From a virus: a DNA stretch of 25,547 nt. A model generated the notes under the pieces. The model had not been told where the DNA came from and searched no databases. It worked only from the letters and a program-made list of their open reading frames with translations. The DNA lies in the IMG/VR virus record IMGVR_UViG_3300004369_000131, positions 1-25,547 of that record; one strand, given 5' to 3'. Numbering within the stretch: position 1 is the stretch's first letter; every line of letters starts with the position of its first letter. Positions 18,098 to 25,547 of the stretch are shown piece after piece. Position numbers and translations under genes: made by a program.

Positions 18098-18564
18098 GCA
18101 TCTTCAACGACGTTAAAGAACTAGCAGGAGGGAGCAAGCAGTCTAAGGACTGGTATAGGTCTCAGGTATTCTATGGGTTGGAAGACTCAAAAGGGTTCAA
18201 GGTAGGTGACGTTATATTCTTTGCATACTCTGCGGCAACCAAAGATCTGCCATTCTATGACAAGTACCCGATGGTACTGATCACAGATATTGACATGGCA
18301 AACCAGCAGTTCTCTGGTGGAAACATACATTATCTTAGACCTAGCACCAGAATATCTGTTGCTAAATCTTGGGGCGGGGGATCCGTATCATATCCTCGTC
18401 GCTGCCACCATAAATACTTTATGTCAAATGCAAGTAATATCAAGACGGTCTCATCTGCTGACCTCAAAGATATGAAGTATCCGCTCCCTTTGGAGCAATT
18501 TACTATGAATGTTGTGGGTCGATATCTTGACGTTCCTAGTTCCATCATTTGGAGTAGACAATAG
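18094..18564 (+). CDS. Conserved structural-type protein between gp4 and gp54
   Basis: A 156-aa protein that I cannot name. It is beta-rich with a compact SH3-like pattern: GDVIFFAYSAATKDLPFYDKYPMVLITDIDMANQQFSGGNIHYLRP. This 'PFYDKYPMVL ... GGNIHYL' combination recurs in small proteins of T4-like phages. A Gly-rich turn (SWGGGSVSYP), paired HH and the C-terminal QFTMNVVGRYLDVPSS follow. AAAGG just before the ATG is the ribosome site. Coupled by ATGA to gp4 and by TAGTG to gp54, so it is most likely a head- or tail-completion or baseplate component. A late-like CATAAATAC at 18409-18417 is inside it. Confidence 0.72.
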   Translation: MSIFNDVKELAGGSKQSKDWYRSQVFYGLEDSKGFKVGDVIFFAYSAATKDLPFYDKYPMVLITDIDMANQQFSGGNIHYLRPSTRISVAKSWGGGSVSYPRRCHHKYFMSNASNIKTVSSADLKDMKYPLPLEQFTMNVVGRYLDVPSSIIWSRQ

Positions 18565-19301
18565 TGGGAAGTCCCAATAGATTTAATACATTCAGAGATC
18601 TGGTTGCTACTAATGCCCTGGCACCAGCAACCACTAACCTGTTTCAAATTATGATTCCTGCACCTCCCATATTCGGTAACGGTGGTAATGGTGCAGTGTC
18701 TGGTGGTCGTATTAAAAGAGTCTATGAGACTATCAACTACTATGCTTCTTCTGTTACTACACCAAGTAGAGCATTGACGACAAGCGAAATCAATAACTAT
18801 GGTATGATGCGTCGCTTCGCCACAGGTCAGACTAACTCGGAGATTACTATCTCGTTCTTGGTCACAAAGGACCAGATGCATAGAGACTTCTTTGAAGCAT
18901 GGTTACACTCTGCTGCTTCTGACTCTGATAATAGCGTAGCATTCTATGATGATTATGTTGTTGATTTGCAGATCGTCAAATGGGAGCATGGTGCTAACTT
19001 TAAGTTGAAGCAGAATAGAGATAATAGCAAAAAAGGACTGCATCCGATGCAAGCAACTGGTGTGTGGAAACTGTTTGGTGCATTCCCCACTAACATCAGC
19101 ACTCAAACGTTTGATAACGAACAGACTGGACTTCTGCAAATGGATATTCAGTTCTACTTCGAGCGTTACAGATTCGACCAAGTATCTCCTAAGACCCTGA
19201 AAACGAAGGGTGGTAGAGCAGAAACATTCACGTTTAGTGAAGTTAGAACCAGAGTAGAAGGTTCTGGTAACCCCGATGTACAGAGATTCAGCATCGGATA
19301 A
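18564..19301 (+). CDS. 54: gp54 baseplate/tail-tube initiator
   Basis: A 245-aa protein, smaller than T4 gp54 (320 aa), with tail-tube character: FRDLVATNALAPATTNLFQIMIPAPP, then ASSVTTPSRALTTSEINNYGMMRRFATGQTNSEITISFLVTKDQMHRDFFEAW, ending with YFERYRFD. The 'SEITISFLVT...HRDFFEAW' element is the tube-protein signature shared by gp54 and gp19-type proteins. It would sit on gp48 and start polymerisation of gp19. A GTG start at 18564 overlaps the preceding TAG, with GGAG about nine bases upstream. gp19 itself is not in the window, so assignment as a tube protein paralogue cannot be wholly excluded. Confidence 0.82.
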   Translation: MGSPNRFNTFRDLVATNALAPATTNLFQIMIPAPPIFGNGGNGAVSGGRIKRVYETINYYASSVTTPSRALTTSEINNYGMMRRFATGQTNSEITISFLVTKDQMHRDFFEAWLHSAASDSDNSVAFYDDYVVDLQIVKWEHGANFKLKQNRDNSKKGLHPMQATGVWKLFGAFPTNISTQTFDNEQTGLLQMDIQFYFERYRFDQVSPKTLKTKGGRAETFTFSEVRTRVEGSGNPDVQRFSIG

Positions 19302-19335: not shown

Positions 19336-20037
19336 ATGCCTTTACCTAAACTTGTAGTGCCTGATTACGAGTGTAAACTCCCTGTCAGTGGTACTAAGGT
19401 CACATACCGACCGTTTCTTGTAAAAGAAGAAAAACTCCTCTATCTCGCGATGGAGTCCCAGAACGAGAAGGAGATGATTCGCGCAGTGAAGCAAATCCTT
19501 AAAGCATGTACCAACATTCCTAATGTTGAGAAACTTGCCACGTTTGAGATCGAGTATCTTTTCTTGAAGATCAGATCCAAAGCAGTTGGTGAAGTTAGTG
19601 AATTCAAAGTAACATGTCAAGATGATGGAGAGACTCAGGTTGATGTTCAACTGAATCTCGATGAGATTGAAGTTAATGTTCCTAAGGATCACAAGAAGAT
19701 CGTCAAACTCACTGATACTGTCAAGGTACAGATGAGGTATCCTTCACTCGATGCATTCATCGACACCAACATGAAGGAAGATCCTGACATTGAAGATGTC
19801 TTTGAACTTGCTGCCGACTGCATTGAAAAAGTATACGATGGAGATGAAACCTATGAGGCTTTCACTAAGAAAGAAGCAAAGGATTTCCTCGGTGAGATGA
19901 ATAGTGAACAGTTCCAATCTATTCAAAAGTTCTTCGACACAATGCCTAAACTCAGGCATGAGTTCGTGGTAACGAATCCTAAAACCAAGGTGGATAACAC
20001 CATCATCCTGGAAGGACTCGCGGCTTTTTTCGCGTAG
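19336..20037 (+). CDS. 26: gp26 baseplate hub / tail assembly protein
   Basis: A 233-aa member of the T4 gp26-type baseplate family (T4 gp26, 208 aa). Features are LPVSGTKVTYRPFLVKEEKLLYLAME, the paired-strand region VSEFKVTCQDDGETQVDVQLNLDEIEV, YPSLDAFIDTNM, and the end FLGEMNSEQFQSIQKFFDTMPKLRHEF plus TNPKTKVDNTIILEGL. It is followed at once by a small ORF in the -1 frame and then the tape-measure gene, the same arrangement as tail assembly chaperones G/GT in other phages. Its final codons GCT TTT TTC contain a slippery heptamer. The usual product stops at TAG 20035-20037. No Shine-Dalgarno is evident before ATG 19336. Confidence 0.87.
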   Translation: MPLPKLVVPDYECKLPVSGTKVTYRPFLVKEEKLLYLAMESQNEKEMIRAVKQILKACTNIPNVEKLATFEIEYLFLKIRSKAVGEVSEFKVTCQDDGETQVDVQLNLDEIEVNVPKDHKKIVKLTDTVKVQMRYPSLDAFIDTNMKEDPDIEDVFELAADCIEKVYDGDETYEAFTKKEAKDFLGEMNSEQFQSIQKFFDTMPKLRHEFVVTNPKTKVDNTIILEGLAAFFA

Positions 20038-20091
20038 CGTTAATGCATGATAGTCTCATGAACTTGTTCAAGACTAACTTTGCATTAATGC
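20025..20091 (+). other. Programmed -1 ribosomal frameshift signal
   Basis: Slippery heptamer T TTT TTC (20025-20031) in the gp26 frame, five-nt spacer, then an 11-pair stem (20037-20047 with 20081-20091, one G-T pair). The loop contains an inner hairpin: TAGTCT/AGACTA (51-56 with 71-76 in the 20000s), a CA bulge, and TGAAC/GTTCA. The -1 frame is open from the heptamer through to 20231. The product would be 232 gp26 residues plus 66 more (298 aa). Confidence 0.82.
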
Positions 20092-20231
20092 AACACCACA
20101 AATACTCACTAACTGAGTTAGAAGACATGATCCCTTGGGAAAGGGATGTTTACGTGAATCTACTTATAGCATATCTACAAGAAGAAGAGCGCGAACGTGC
20201 CAAGCAAAAACAAGGTGGATCATTCCTATAA
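20043..20231 (+). CDS. Small ORF in the -1 frame, frameshift extension of gp26
   Basis: A 62-aa ORF: NLFKTNFALMQHHKYSLTELEDMIPWERDVYVNLLIAYLQEEERERAKQ. It is helical, with an acidic-basic C-terminal end. The 'LTELEDMIPWERDVYV..L' run resembles the C-terminal 'T' domains of GT-type tail assembly chaperones. It has no Shine-Dalgarno, and its ATG lies inside the frameshift stem, so independent translation should be weak; it is more likely made as a gp26 fusion. It occupies the place of T4 gene 51 (hub assembly), which is much longer. TAATG overlap with the next gene. Confidence 0.75.
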   Translation: MHDSLMNLFKTNFALMQHHKYSLTELEDMIPWERDVYVNLLIAYLQEEERERAKQKQGGSFL

Positions 20232-23200
20232 TGGCAGCAACGATCAGAAAATTTGTAACCATTAAACCCCAGTTTGGGTCAGACGAGTTAGGCAAACAGT
20301 TTAAGTCACAAACGTTTGCCTTCAATCGTCTTGGTGTGGTTCTGACTGACATTGGTCTGCTAACAAAAGAATTCAAAGAAGTAGTAACAACATACTCTGA
20401 TTCTGTACTCGCTTTCCAAGAAAGAGAGAAGGAAGTTACAGAGAAAGAGCACAAGCATAAGATAGAGATAATTGAAGCCCAGGAAGACATACTGGGCAAG
20501 AAGAAAGGATTGCAGCAGGATAAACTTGCAGAAGAGAAGCAAGAAGGACTGAGTGAGAAGAAAGAAGAGAAGATAGGTGAGGAGGAAGCAAAGAAGGAAA
20601 AGAAATCTAAGTTTGGATGGTTGAAGAACCTGTTCAGTCCCATGAAGATGCTCATGGGTGGACTGATCAAGTTGGTTGCTCCATTCCTTGCTCTGGGTGT
20701 ACTAGACTGGTTATCCAAACCAGAAAACTTAGAGAAGATCAAGACACTCTTGAAGTTCTTCAAGGGTATATGGGATCTTGCTCGATGGTTTACCAAGTGG
20801 GGGATGACTCAGGTTCTTGATGGGATCACGAAAGTATTTGGTAATGATCCTAACAAGAGTGCCGTTGAGAATGGTCTTGATAAGGTATTTGGTGTTCTGC
20901 AAATCGTTGCAGGATTAGCAAGTATCTTTGTAGGATCTCGTATCCTAATGCCTTGGAAGTTGATTGGCGACTTCAAGGCGATGCGTAAGATCGGTGAGAC
21001 ATTCCGAAAGTCGCAACAACCTAGAAGTGGTGGCGGTGGTAGTCGAGGAGGATCGGGAGATAGTTCTGGTAGAAGACTAACTGCACGAGAGAGATATAGA
21101 AGAAGATTTGGTGATGGACGTGCCAGAAGAAGATTCGGTCGTGGTGGTCGTCGTGGTTTAGGTGCAGTTGCTGGTGCTTTGTGTCCTAATCCTCTGGATC
21201 TGTTACCTGCTGGTGCAGATGATGCTACAAAGAAAGCAGTTGCTCAGAACGCTGACGAGGTAGCGAAGAAAACTGGTGTTGAGATTGCAGAAAAGAGCAG
21301 TAAAGGCGTCATGGGCGCTTTGGGTGATCTATTTGGCAAAGGTCAGAGACTCGCAGGTCGAGCAGTTGATGCTACTGTAACTGGTGCAAAGGCAGTTGGT
21401 TCATTCACCACTGGTGCGTTAAAAAATATAAACAACTGGTTTGCTGAGGGTGGCAAGAGACTGATCGGTGGTGTCAAGAGTATGGGTCAGGGTCTTTGGG
21501 ACTTTGGTGCCAAGGCAGGTAAAGCGATCGGTGATATTGCAGAACTGGCAAAGAATCCTGCTGCGCTTCGCGACAAAGCGATGGCGAAGGTCAAGGATTT
21601 CGTTGGTCCTATTCTAGAAAAGAATCCTATTGGTAAGCAGGTCAAGGATCTTGCCAACGCCCCACCGAAGGGTCTTTTTGGTGGCATCAAGATGGATAAG
21701 GTGAAGGATTCCATCGGTGGTGCTATTAAGTCAGGATTCCAGAATCCTGGATTCAAGAACATGCGTGAGTTCTTGAAAGCAGCAAAAGCAAATGCCAAGA
21801 TCGGTGGTGTTGATAAGATCGTTGCCACTGTCCTAGCACTCATGGACTATGGTATGTTCGGTGAGTCACCTATCAATGCTCTACTCAAAGCAACTGGTGG
21901 TCTACTAGGTTACTCTGCTGGTTTTGCTATTGGTGCTCCGTTTGGTGGTGTGCCTGGTTTCATCACTGGTATGGCAGGTGGTTTTGCTGGTGAGTGGGCA
22001 GCAGAACAGTTACTGAAACTCCTTTATAAGATACCCTGGTTGGCAGAGACTGATGACCCGATCGCTAAGATGATCGGTGGTGACTTTGCACAGAGAAAAC
22101 TGATCCGTGATCCTGACGGTGGATTCCCTGGTGAAGATGCACTGTTGTCAGCAGCAGAGTCTGGTGATACTGGTGAACCCATGACTCTCCCTGAGATGGC
22201 AGTGGGTGGTGCTGTAAGAGCACACAATAAGATGGCGAAGAAGATGGTCGATCCCATGGTGATGAGCACCAAGAAGTCGGCAAAAGATCCTGCAAGAGAT
22301 TGGGGTAAGTTTGCTTCTGGTGGTTCTGTCAATGGTAGATTGCCTGAGGATCAACTAGCATCGATTGGTAGTGGACATAAACTCGCCAAAGATGTTGCGC
22401 CTAAGTTCAAGGCGATGATGGCAAAGGCATCAAAAGATGGATTTAAGATGGGTTCTGCATTCAGAATCAACTCATCTTATCGTACATATGAGAAGCAGGC
22501 ACAACTTTATAGAGAAAAAGGACCTGGCACTGCTGCTGCCCCTGGTACATCTAACCATGGTCTAGGTAAGGCAGTTGACCTCTGGTTCACCAATGGTGCA
22601 TACAAGTGGTTGAGGATGAATGCTGGAACATATGGATTCAAGCAGATTCCTGGATATGAGACAGACAATCCTGATGGGCATGAGGCATGGCACTGGGAGA
22701 ATCTGACTGGTGGTGGTAGCACTGATGGATCTGGCAACTATACTGCACCTACAACAGGATCTACGACACAGACTGGTAGCGATTCCAGCAGTTCTAATAC
22801 TGGTGGTACGGATACTGCTAACCAGACTGCTGAACCCACAATAGATGCCAAGACCGAGTATCTGTCAGCACAGAAGATGGCAGAGATCTTTTCTCAGAAA
22901 CTAGGTATCCTTGGAAACTATGCTAAGGATGCTGAGGAGATGGGTGGTGGAACACCTAGTGAGGGTGTGTTTGATCCCACTCCACCACAAGCACCTCCGT
23001 CTGTTGCTCCTCCTGCCCCACAACCTCTTTCTGATCTCAAACCAGTCAAAACTAATGAGACAGAGGCACTAAATACTAAGATAGACAAACTGAGTACATT
23101 ATCTGTCGATAAGACACGTCGTGAGAAGGAACCTAAGACTAATCAACTAATGGTCGCGGTCCAACCTGTCGTTCAGACACAAGTCATTGGTGGCGGTAAG

Positions 23201-23248
23201 AAACAATCCGCTGGCGGTCCATCTGCATCTCCCCTCCTTAACGGTTAA
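20231..23248 (+). CDS. Tape-measure/baseplate hub protein with M15 DD-peptidase domain
   Basis: A 1005-aa structural protein in the position of the tape measure. Order: N-terminal domain (1-65), a charged coiled coil about 65-125 (EREKEVTEKEHKHK... KKEEKIGEEEAKKEKK), hydrophobic segments with the LDWLSKPENLEKIKTLL motif (about 145-175), an Arg/Gly-rich stretch about 260-310 (RRRFGDGRARRRFGRGGRRG), Ala/Gly-rich membrane-active helices (to about 640), and a VanY-type M15 peptidase about 745-825: RINSSYRTYEKQAQLY, SNHGLGKAVDL (H776, D783) and EAWHWEN (E818, H821) give the zinc and catalytic residues. A Ser/Thr linker and a YLSAQKMAEIF element precede a Pro-rich end. It should cleave peptidoglycan peptides during entry. 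The frame is open back to 20135, but ATG 20231 fits the TAATG overlap. Confidence 0.85.
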   Translation: MAATIRKFVTIKPQFGSDELGKQFKSQTFAFNRLGVVLTDIGLLTKEFKEVVTTYSDSVLAFQEREKEVTEKEHKHKIEIIEAQEDILGKKKGLQQDKLAEEKQEGLSEKKEEKIGEEEAKKEKKSKFGWLKNLFSPMKMLMGGLIKLVAPFLALGVLDWLSKPENLEKIKTLLKFFKGIWDLARWFTKWGMTQVLDGITKVFGNDPNKSAVENGLDKVFGVLQIVAGLASIFVGSRILMPWKLIGDFKAMRKIGETFRKSQQPRSGGGGSRGGSGDSSGRRLTARERYRRRFGDGRARRRFGRGGRRGLGAVAGALCPNPLDLLPAGADDATKKAVAQNADEVAKKTGVEIAEKSSKGVMGALGDLFGKGQRLAGRAVDATVTGAKAVGSFTTGALKNINNWFAEGGKRLIGGVKSMGQGLWDFGAKAGKAIGDIAELAKNPAALRDKAMAKVKDFVGPILEKNPIGKQVKDLANAPPKGLFGGIKMDKVKDSIGGAIKSGFQNPGFKNMREFLKAAKANAKIGGVDKIVATVLALMDYGMFGESPINALLKATGGLLGYSAGFAIGAPFGGVPGFITGMAGGFAGEWAAEQLLKLLYKIPWLAETDDPIAKMIGGDFAQRKLIRDPDGGFPGEDALLSAAESGDTGEPMTLPEMAVGGAVRAHNKMAKKMVDPMVMSTKKSAKDPARDWGKFASGGSVNGRLPEDQLASIGSGHKLAKDVAPKFKAMMAKASKDGFKMGSAFRINSSYRTYEKQAQLYREKGPGTAAAPGTSNHGLGKAVDLWFTNGAYKWLRMNAGTYGFKQIPGYETDNPDGHEAWHWENLTGGGSTDGSGNYTAPTTGSTTQTGSDSSSSNTGGTDTANQTAEPTIDAKTEYLSAQKMAEIFSQKLGILGNYAKDAEEMGGGTPSEGVFDPTPPQAPPSVAPPAPQPLSDLKPVKTNETEALNTKIDKLSTLSVDKTRREKEPKTNQLMVAVQPVVQTQVIGGGKKQSAGGPSASPLLNG

Positions 23249-25547
23249 TGGCAAAGATAAGATTTTACAAATATGTAACTCCCCCATCCACAGGTGGTAA
23301 GGGTATCACTGTCATTATTGATGGTAAGAAAGTTACGCAACCCACAGATGGTGCTGTAAAGAATATCAAAGCGATCAATAGTCTGGGTGCTACCACCAAC
23401 TCGATCGGTGTGGTCATGGAGGATATGACTACATCCATGAAGGGTTTCATGAGCACTTACATGAGGACACAGGAACAGATCCTGAATCTTCGTGAGGATC
23501 ATATTGATGATGAGAAGAAGAGACTGAAAGATGCATCAAGAGCGGAGAAGAGAGCAGAAGGGTTAGAGCAGGATAAGAAAGCAGAGGACTTACAAGAAGG
23601 AAAGAGAGATAAGAAATCTACATTTGGTAAGAAGTCGAAGAAGGTTGCTGCTGGTGCCTTTGGATTCTTCAAGGGATTGGCATCTCTATTCACGAATCTG
23701 TTTAGAACTTTGGTTATGTATGAGATTCTTGATTGGTTCTCTAAACCAGAGAACTTAAAGAAGATCAAGAAGATGCTTGAAGCAATCAAGGCGATTGGTA
23801 CTTGGTTGAAGGATACCTATGGATTCCTGATCAACATGGGTCTGGATGGTATCGTAGCATTCATGGAGAATCCTTTCAGTTTTCAAGGTGTCTTCGGTAT
23901 CCTCAAATTTATAACAGCACTGGGTCTTATCTTTGCACCTGTTGCTGTTGCTAAACTAGGACTTGGACTTCTGTTCAAGTTGATGGGTAGTCTTGGATCC
24001 AAAGGATTAGCGAATGCTGTCTTTGGATTCATGGGTAAATTGGGGATGGCAGTCTTCAATGTGATGAAAGGTGTCGTCAGTTTCCTTGTGGGAACTGGAT
24101 GGGGATGGGCACTGATGGGTATTGCTGGCATCGGAGCACTAGGTATTGCTCTGGGCAACAAGGCAAACACCCCAGGCGTAGAGAAAGGTAAGACAGAACT
24201 AGATGAAACCTCAGAGAATGGTGGCATGGTTGGCGCTCCTATGAGCGGTGACATGTTCTCCGATGAGGGTCTGGACGAGAAGGCAGACGGTGGTAAGGTC
24301 AAGAAGAAAGCAGCAGGCGGTGGATGGATCAATGGTCCGATGTCAGGTTACCCTGTGTCCCTGGATGGTGGTGCAACTACATCCTTCATCGGTCATGGCA
24401 CTGAATGGGTTGGTAGACGTTCTGCTGGTGGTGACGCATTCGTAATCCCGTTCAACACACCTGCAACTTCTGGTGGTCGAAATGGTCTGACCAGTCTGAG
24501 AATGCAGCAGGCAAAGGCAGGTGGATATACTCTCCCCTCTTTTGCTAAGGGTGGTACACTATCTAACACCAAGAACCCACGTCGTGATGGTTCTCAGGAA
24601 GAGAATCGTCTGGCAGGGATGGAATCTCTTAGAAAACTAGCACAGGGTGGTAAGATCTTCCTCCACTGGACTGCTGGTGGTGGTAACTTCAAACAGTCAG
24701 GTAAGTATCACTCTATTGTTCAGGGTGATGGTAGTATCTATCGTGCTCACCCATATGATCAGAGATCTGGTGTTGCACACACATATTTGAGAAATGGTGA
24801 AGGTATTGGCATGGCACTTGCTGCCATGGCAGGATCTGCTGGTAATTATGTATGGCCTAGTGGTAAACAGATCTCGGCAATGTCAGGAGAGATCGCTGAC
24901 ATCGCTAAGAAGCGTGGTTGGAAAGAAAGTGATATTAACGTCAAGAACATTATGACCCATGCTGAGGCAGCATCTGGTAAGGATGGTAAACTGCCTGGCA
25001 ATGACAACTATGGTCCTACTGCATGGGGTGGTGATGGCGCACGCTGGGACTTGTGGCACCTAACTAAGGATGGTGAGAAAGGTTCTGGTGGTCATATCAT
25101 TCGTAACCAAGTAAGAAAGATGCTTGGTATGAAACAGATTCCTGTTCCTCCCGATGCAGGATCTCCTAACCCCGCCAAAGCAGCAGCAAGTAAAGGTAGC
25201 ACCAAGAACAATGCCACCAATACTAACAACCAGTCAGGTAGTAGTGAGGGTAGCACTACTAATACTTTTGACTCTACTAGTTCATATCTGTCTGCCGAGA
25301 AGATGGCAGCATTCTTTACTGGTAGTGCTGGACTCATTGGAGATTATGCTGCTGATGCCAAAGAGATGGCAACAGGTGGTAACCTCAACTTGGGCATTTC
25401 TGGTCCATTCTGCCCCTGGTGCAAGTCTGGTAAGAAATATGCATCTGGTGGTAACTTGAATGTCTCCAATGTAAAAACAACATATTACGATCCATCATTA
25501 GGTGGTATTAATGCCAGTGGATATAAAACTGCCGAAGGACTTCCTGC
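23248..25547 (+). CDS. Second tape-measure-like protein with amidase domain (3' end outside window)
   Basis: At least 766 codons, open to the window end. ATG 23248 overlaps the previous stop (TAATG). The N-terminal half parallels the preceding protein: a charged coiled coil about 80-125 (EDHIDDEKKRLKDASRAEKRA), then LDWFSKPENLKKIKKML (matching LDWLSKPENLEKIKTLL) and hydrophobic helices. From about 465 to 625 lies a T7-lysozyme/AmpD-type amidase: FLHWTAGGGNF (H473), KYHSIVQGDGSIYRA, MTHAEA (H571) and RWDLWHL (D601) supply the three zinc ligands. After it come a Ser/Asn linker, YLSAEKMAAFFTG (again shared) and a CPWC pair. It would cleave the amide bond between muramic acid and alanine, complementing the M15 enzyme of its neighbour. 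Confidence 0.85.
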   Translation, partial: MAKIRFYKYVTPPSTGGKGITVIIDGKKVTQPTDGAVKNIKAINSLGATTNSIGVVMEDMTTSMKGFMSTYMRTQEQILNLREDHIDDEKKRLKDASRAEKRAEGLEQDKKAEDLQEGKRDKKSTFGKKSKKVAAGAFGFFKGLASLFTNLFRTLVMYEILDWFSKPENLKKIKKMLEAIKAIGTWLKDTYGFLINMGLDGIVAFMENPFSFQGVFGILKFITALGLIFAPVAVAKLGLGLLFKLMGSLGSKGLANAVFGFMGKLGMAVFNVMKGVVSFLVGTGWGWALMGIAGIGALGIALGNKANTPGVEKGKTELDETSENGGMVGAPMSGDMFSDEGLDEKADGGKVKKKAAGGGWINGPMSGYPVSLDGGATTSFIGHGTEWVGRRSAGGDAFVIPFNTPATSGGRNGLTSLRMQQAKAGGYTLPSFAKGGTLSNTKNPRRDGSQEENRLAGMESLRKLAQGGKIFLHWTAGGGNFKQSGKYHSIVQGDGSIYRAHPYDQRSGVAHTYLRNGEGIGMALAAMAGSAGNYVWPSGKQISAMSGEIADIAKKRGWKESDINVKNIMTHAEAASGKDGKLPGNDNYGPTAWGGDGARWDLWHLTKDGEKGSGGHIIRNQVRKMLGMKQIPVPPDAGSPNPAKAAASKGSTKNNATNTNNQSGSSEGSTTNTFDSTSSYLSAEKMAAFFTGSAGLIGDYAADAKEMATGGNLNLGISGPFCPWCKSGKKYASGGNLNVSNVKTTYYDPSLGGINASGYKTAEGLP

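Follow-up and report, generated by a model that had tools for sequence, protein, structure and literature searches.

The window, which is the whole 25,547 nt stretch of viral DNA analyzed (IMG/VR record IMGVR_UViG_3300004369_000131), carries on its plus strand a run of genes in the order tube, gp26, extension, giant gene. The nearest named record found is Synechococcus phage S-WAM1, in the Kyanoviridae. The upstream tail-tube-like gene (18564..19301) matches the PHROG 45 tail tube family (1.5e-37). gp26 (19336..20037) runs from an ATG at 19336 to a TAG stop at 20035-20037, and its 233-aa zero-frame product is, judging from Pfam, PHROG and its fold, a putative short form of the tail assembly chaperone (TAC-N, G-like). 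The final codons are GCT TTT TTC GCG TAG, which phases a slippery heptamer, T_TTT_TTC (20025..20031; called from sequence and conservation), for tandem -1 slippage. From 20025 the -1 frame contains no stop until a TAA at 20229-20231. A shift at the heptamer would yield a 232 + 66 = 298-residue fusion with the junction F-F-R-V-A-L, and translation of the shifted frame reproduces the product that a first-pass annotation of this DNA had predicted. The T-like extension (20025..20231; 66 residues after the shift plus the stop) matches the C-terminal part of T4 gp51. Within it, a gene-finder style call gives a 62-aa ORF (20043..20231) that is probably no free gene. Its ATG (20043) lies 5 nt past the gp26 stop, inside the 5′ arm of a predicted RNA stem, and by eye no Shine-Dalgarno (SD)-like sequence precedes it, in agreement with the earlier description of this start as buried and lacking a ribosome site.

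Candidate RNA signals lie on both sides of the heptamer. An internal SD-like sequence, GGAAGGA (20010..20016), is separated from the heptamer by 8 nt and from the P-site codon by 9 nt, and its pairing with the anti-SD comes to -5.5 kcal/mol. Downstream, a stem (20037-20047 / 20081-20091) encloses a nested hairpin (20049-20056 / 20071-20078 and 20059-20062 / 20067-20070), the whole spanning 20037..20091. The main stem has 11 pairs, carries two extra outer pairs and stands 5 nt from the heptamer. The fold of 20032-20110 has an energy of -23.3 kcal/mol (z -4.8), and 0/200 shuffles were as good. The heptamer, the 5-nt spacer, the 11-pair stem with its nested hairpin and the open -1 frame were all found where the first-pass annotation had put them.

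The ATG of the giant gene (20231..23248; 1005 aa) overlaps the extension stop as TAATG (20229-20233), and the gene has its own SD-like sequence, AAGGTGG, at 20212-20218. In 80 thinned relatives, the extension stop overlapped the first ATG opening at least 80 codons in 41 and lay within 20 nt of it in 34, these being raw counts with no chance control. The tape-measure gene had been said to follow at once. A giant gene does directly adjoin the extension, and it is long with hydrophobic segments; the match to a tape-measure family was not found. Its product fell into no PHROG tape-measure family and shared no PHROG with T4 gp29, and its PDB matches were to carboxypeptidases only. We regard this gene, next to the gp26 extension and with a VanY-like domain, as a likely tape-measure candidate. 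It forms a tandem with a second giant gene (23248-25545), the two sharing 28% identity over about 200 N-terminal residues. One has the VanY-like peptidase domain and the other an amidase domain; they are possibly tape-measure-like or tail-lysin paralogues.

Conservation of the heptamer and its RNA context

Among 27 hand-picked gene ends from the window's ORF list, the only X_XXY_YYZ within the last 11 codons is the gp26 site. The -1 open frame of gp26 (68 codons) is surpassed at 8/26 other gene ends, several of which merely enter an overlapping gene. Chance resemblance is better judged by conservation than by the window's own gene ends. With gp26 as query we obtained 79 IMG/VR loci, from the best 80 of 95 relatives, and with the extension as query 80 further loci, the top-ranking part of at least 600; one or more contigs occur in both sets. 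The collection then examined, named phages included, comprises 172 loci, 166 of them with an extension match.

An in-phase T_TTT_TT[C/T/A] was present in 78/78 gp26-seeded loci that reach the junction (from the best 80 of the 95 relatives; one locus, L058, is cut off). T_TTT_TTN was found in 166/166 extension-matching loci (best 80 of 95 for the gp26 query, best 80 of at least 600 for the extension query), read at the position set by the extension alignment, whose query starts with F-F; the 78/78 count is free of that dependence. The last base of the heptamer among the 166 is C in 145, T in 13, A in seven and G in one, and the first slip codon sits 2 to 10 codons ahead of the stop. The 6/172 loci without an extension match are two truncated contigs, T4, Klebsiella phage R3_1, Vibrio phage K476 and Stenotrophomonas phage YB07, the last of which has the heptamer by inspection. 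A Stenotrophomonas query recovered two IMG/VR loci. One of these (L174) has five T in the run, near position 2250, and its gp26 enters another frame, while the nearly identical L173 is intact; we read L174 as either mutated or misread in sequencing and count it as an exception. The gp26 of Vibrio phage K476 gave no IMG/VR match, and a mixed alignment (A1) was too variable as a search query for distant relatives.

A phage collection gave matches in 693 records for gp26 and 561 for the extension, and we read the junction in 26 named records. The heptamer stands in 18/26, nine of which are also within the 166 loci. The heptamer-bearing phages are S-CAM1, S-CAM4, S-PM2, S-WAM1, P-SSM2, BUCT-ZZ01, Vibrio nt-1, Aeromonas avDM6 and CC2, Acidovorax ACP17, Sinorhizobium phiM19, Caulobacter Cr30, Rhizobium AF3, Agrobacterium OLIVR5, Stenotrophomonas YB07, Xanthomonas X1, Pseudomonas pf16 and Desulfovibrio 7757. 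The conservation of the heptamer, put forward by the first-pass annotation as a check, therefore holds in nearly all relatives examined, and so does that of the -1 frame.

Codon choice at the first base of the heptamer points in the same direction. Ahead of TTT stands a codon for Ala, Ser, Asp, Asn or Gly that is NNT without exception: a final T is found in 135/135 distinct loci, where codon use would predict 77.6. Because many loci are near-identical, we thinned the set to 82 and to 43 loci, and the count remained complete in both (82/82 with 49.2 expected; 43/43 with 24.9 expected).

The internal SD-like site is less uniform. Across the 135 loci, the 8-mers that end 7 nt upstream of the heptamer pair most strongly with the anti-SD, at a mean of -5.73 kcal/mol against a mean of -4.64 (sd 0.15) in a synonymous codon resampling control, and in the thinned sets of 82 and 43 loci 0/200 resamplings reach the observed mean. 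Pairing of -5 kcal/mol or better is found in only 48/82 and 25/43 thinned loci, and the strongest anti-SD 8-mer within 45 nt in the window is a different one, 31 nt before the heptamer. Other positions also beat the synonymous control, e.g., 8-mers ending 24 nt upstream (z -5.7), where the mean energy is only -0.64. The signal stems partly from conserved Glu-Gly residues; its excess over the synonymous control argues for selection on the RNA. Internal SD sequences for -1 shifts are given as lying 9-14 nt from the shift site in the consulted part of a 2016 review (PMC5009743), so that GGAAGGA, at 8 nt from the heptamer or 9 nt from the P-site codon, sits at the lower end of that range or slightly below it.

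For the stem we compared 121 junctions in register, of 123 distinct. In the 44 junctions with extension identity of at least 70%, pairs are kept at 71% in the outer stem and 74% in the inner hairpin, against 23-50% for slid partners, in a comparison that favors the true pairing over slid versions since the structure derives from the window itself. The inner hairpin in these near junctions has two-sided changes at six pairs (19 cells), against 2-4 pairs (4-17 cells) for slid versions; the outer stem, at four pairs (5 cells) against 2-5 pairs (2-21 cells), has no excess of covariation. In the 15 most distant junctions (extension identity below 55%) pairing does not rise above background, and the stem as a general element of the family, beyond the near relatives that keep it, was rejected. 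Some of the conservation may be due to constraint on the protein, as Ala-Leu-Met is encoded by both stem arms. Folding after the heptamer has a mean z of -1.72 against -0.76 for interior gp26 windows (Mann-Whitney p 1.9e-4, computed over related loci with kinship ignored). Conservation of the paired bases, which the first-pass annotation had named alongside that of the heptamer, was thus borne out for most pairs in close relatives and failed in distant ones and in the covariation of the outer stem. The downstream stem and the internal SD-like site are candidate stimulators.

Phages without the heptamer and other possible routes to the extension

The heptamer is absent in 8/26 named records: T4, Klebsiella R3_1, Vi01, LIMEstone1, YC, 1.255, K476 and D493. 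Vi01, LIMEstone1, YC and 1.255 are Ackermannviridae, and K476 and D493 are Vibrio phages with no family in the record. The six records besides T4 and R3_1 are L175, L176, L177, L178, L187 and L090. In 5/6 of them the gp26 stop overlaps an ATG of the -1 frame as TAATG, Vi01 being the one without. The small ORF of K476 scores 3.8 bits with the extension profile and its PHROG family differs. The same stop-start overlap stands beside the heptamer in nt-1, phiM19, Cr30, AF3 and YB07, so reinitiation is possible in these five phages and both routes may coexist there.

These overlaps, in phages with and without the heptamer, are one argument for reading the 62-aa ORF of the window as a protein of its own, for which ribosomes would reinitiate at the ATG 5 nt past the gp26 TAG. 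ORFs of this type are also often annotated separately, as 'baseplate hub assembly catalyst', and 11 of the 17 annotated heptamer-bearing records have such a CDS. The other six give no CDS there, and in none of the 17 is the extension joined to gp26. The records in which the extension has no CDS are L081, L082, L084, L092, L179 and L185. Reinitiation leaves the in-phase heptamer unexplained. It also fits poorly with the distribution of start codons: extension residues 3-19 contain no ATG, GTG or TTG in 52/135 distinct loci, and the other loci have 125 such codons, of which four have an SD-like sequence. In many relatives a free small protein would thus have no usual start near the annotated place. 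Moreover, the conserved domain takes in residues upstream of the window's ATG. Among 53 sequences F-F is invariant and R-I-x-L is the majority ahead of that ATG, and these residues align to T4 gp51. We therefore consider reinitiation in the window quite improbable.

Slippage of the polymerase on the T-run, giving mixed mRNAs, would also open the -1 frame, and a T-run is present at the site in all 166 extension-matching loci. The run is mostly six T followed by C, shorter than polymerase slippage as a rule requires, and further T6-T7 runs occur in the window. The run's constant phase points to ribosomal slippage, as do the SD-like sequence upstream and the stem; the argument from phase is weakened because Phe-Phe is itself conserved. 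Transcriptional slippage is on this evidence less probable again than reinitiation. A chance motif beside an unrelated short ORF has a negligible probability. T-runs are common and the open -1 frame is longer at 8/26 other gene ends of the window, yet the heptamer is kept in 166 loci and is accompanied by the excess in codon choice.

Relationship to T4 gp51 and to tail assembly chaperones

gp26 matches Pfam T4_baseplate (5.5e-69) and the PHROG 150 baseplate hub family (3.5e-76), and the extension matches PHROG 634 (1.6e-29). Both frames match adjoining parts of PHROG 150, gp26 at 5-232 and the extension at 231-276. T4 gp51 is itself probably a member of PHROG 150, so its own match to that family is not independent. 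The scores of a fusion profile, made from 136 in-silico fusions with T4 excluded, are independent. T4 gp51 scored 46.7 bits with this profile, the best of 4000 shuffled T4 gp51/gp26 sequences reaching 9.4. It also scored with each half alone: 22.3 bits with the short-form profile (best shuffle 11.7) and 22.5 bits with the extension profile (best shuffle 13.2). T4 gp26 scored 77 bits with the short-form profile. T4 gp51 is matched by 1339/50,697 phage records. By these profile scores, T4 gp51 is homologous to the whole predicted frameshift fusion, as a G/GT-like reading of the locus predicts. T4 gp26 is thus the counterpart of the short form and gp51 that of the long form, with one gene each.

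An AlphaFold model of gp26 has a pLDDT of 89.5. The top VIA-align rows for its N-terminal domain, among 742 chains, are 3fgx, 2ob9 and 3klu, with Z of 7.6, 7.5 and 7.0 over 83-84 residues, in a method where Z below 8 can reflect a common arrangement; the next row has Z 4.8. 2ob9 is the HK97 tail assembly chaperone, and 3klu and 3fgx are described as tail assembly chaperones in the consulted part of PMC9603447. A Foldseek search of the gp26 model against the PDB gave nothing significant, with 2ob9_B at rank 4 (E 0.66, prob 0.63), and neither gp26 nor the extension had a sequence relative in the PDB at E below 0.3. The model of the extension is helical (pLDDT 78). The predicted fold of the gp26 N-terminal domain is chaperone-like, resembling the HK97 gp13 / YqbN chaperones at moderate scores. 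One record does not fit a chaperone role. The LIMEstone1 record (L176:1567-2373) notes gp26 as a 'confirmed structural protein', which is unexpected for a chaperone that leaves the virion and counts against the assignment.

Two proposed forms of a chaperone in a T4-like phage

Taking the evidence together, we are highly confident that this T4-like phage has its tail assembly chaperone pair in gp26 and the -1 extension, the long form arising by a ribosome slip. The first-pass annotation had proposed such a pair, and the proposal gains support from the conserved heptamer and -1 frame, from the gp51 homology and from the chaperones in the top VIA-align rows. The analysis shows the sequence elements and how well they are conserved, that the fusion is homologous to T4 gp51, and a predicted fold resembling chaperones; we infer the slippage itself, how often it happens, what each stimulator contributes and what the two forms do. 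Most ribosomes would stop at 20035 and release the 233-aa short form. In a minority, the two Phe tRNAs would slip back by one base, from TTT-TTC to TTT-TTT, and these ribosomes would continue to 20228 and make the 298-aa long form. If the lambda G/GT pair is a guide, the short form may coat the tape measure and the long form may recruit the tube protein. For two HK97-type chaperone genes, the consulted part of PMC3711429 gives a frameshift rate of 6-7%.

Several known systems resemble this locus. Lambda has the gene order tube, G, T, tape measure, which would match the order here if the giant gene is the tape measure, and its heptamer is G_GGA_AAG, which differs from T_TTT_TTC. The lambda proteins gpG and gpGT, as described in the part of the 2016 review consulted, are a short and a long form with a common N-terminus and a -1 shift near the gene end (PMC5009743). 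The same source describes G-T frameshifting as widely conserved among long-tailed phages 'except T4'. Profile scores place T4 gp26 and gp51 in the same families as the two parts found here, with the difference that T4 has two separate genes where this phage has one gene plus a shift. T4 gene 51 lies at L080:8480-9229, on the strand opposite to gene 26, and because the two are separate and divergently oriented T4 has no slip. The E. coli dnaX shift makes a shorter product, unlike the one proposed here, its heptamer is an A-run, and the gene is that of a cellular polymerase. It shares with this locus a heptamer, an upstream SD-like stimulator and a downstream hairpin, according to the part of PMC3711429 consulted. 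Phage P2 E / E+E′ is a -1 shift in a myovirus tail operon, in another phage group. The P2 heptamer is T_TTT_TTG.

The chaperone genes of T4-like phages were identified by Vladimirov, Gautam and Davidson (2022, Virology 566:9), as reported in consulted parts of PMC10885494 (the PRFect paper, which cites them) and PMC12846349. The locus of the Vandenendeviridae / Andersonviridae (phage Adele) also has a short chaperone gene, a -1 extension and a poly-T slip site, there before the tape measure gene; it differs in its motif, GTTTTT, and in the phage families concerned, and the chaperone section of that source mentions no internal SD (PMC12846349). As the T4-like chaperone pair is already in print, the site here adds a member to a known type of system. 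In the literature searched, in which Vladimirov et al. is represented by the papers citing it, we found no description of the cyanophage gp26 shift site, of its internal SD-like sequence or of the Ackermannviridae contrast. Added here are the internal SD-like site, a stem limited to near relatives and the contrast with the heptamer-less Ackermannviridae and Vibrio phages.

A further reading is tentative, and we rate it as possible and doubtful. The slip might set the dose of the tape measure together with that of the long chaperone by translational coupling, in a family that makes the two forms in three ways. Only shifted ribosomes would reach the TAATG at 20229-20233, where the extension ends and the giant gene starts, so that production of the tape measure would be linked to that of the long chaperone. 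The giant gene's own AAGGTGG speaks against coupling and weakens it. The three ways, within the same joint reading, would be the slip, a separate full-length gene as in T4, and perhaps the stop-start overlap in the Ackermannviridae.

T4-like cyanophages are abundant in the sea. The marine, T4-like phage of this window very probably makes a second, longer tail-building helper protein by a ribosome slip at a run of T. The extension is never joined to gp26 in the 17 annotated records, and the long chaperone is therefore missing from those annotations. The comparison also explains T4's place as the odd one out, with gp51 as the counterpart of the frameshift product, encoded as its own gene. If the internal SD and the coupling to the tape measure are true, the family would offer natural variants on the chaperone ratio and how it is set.
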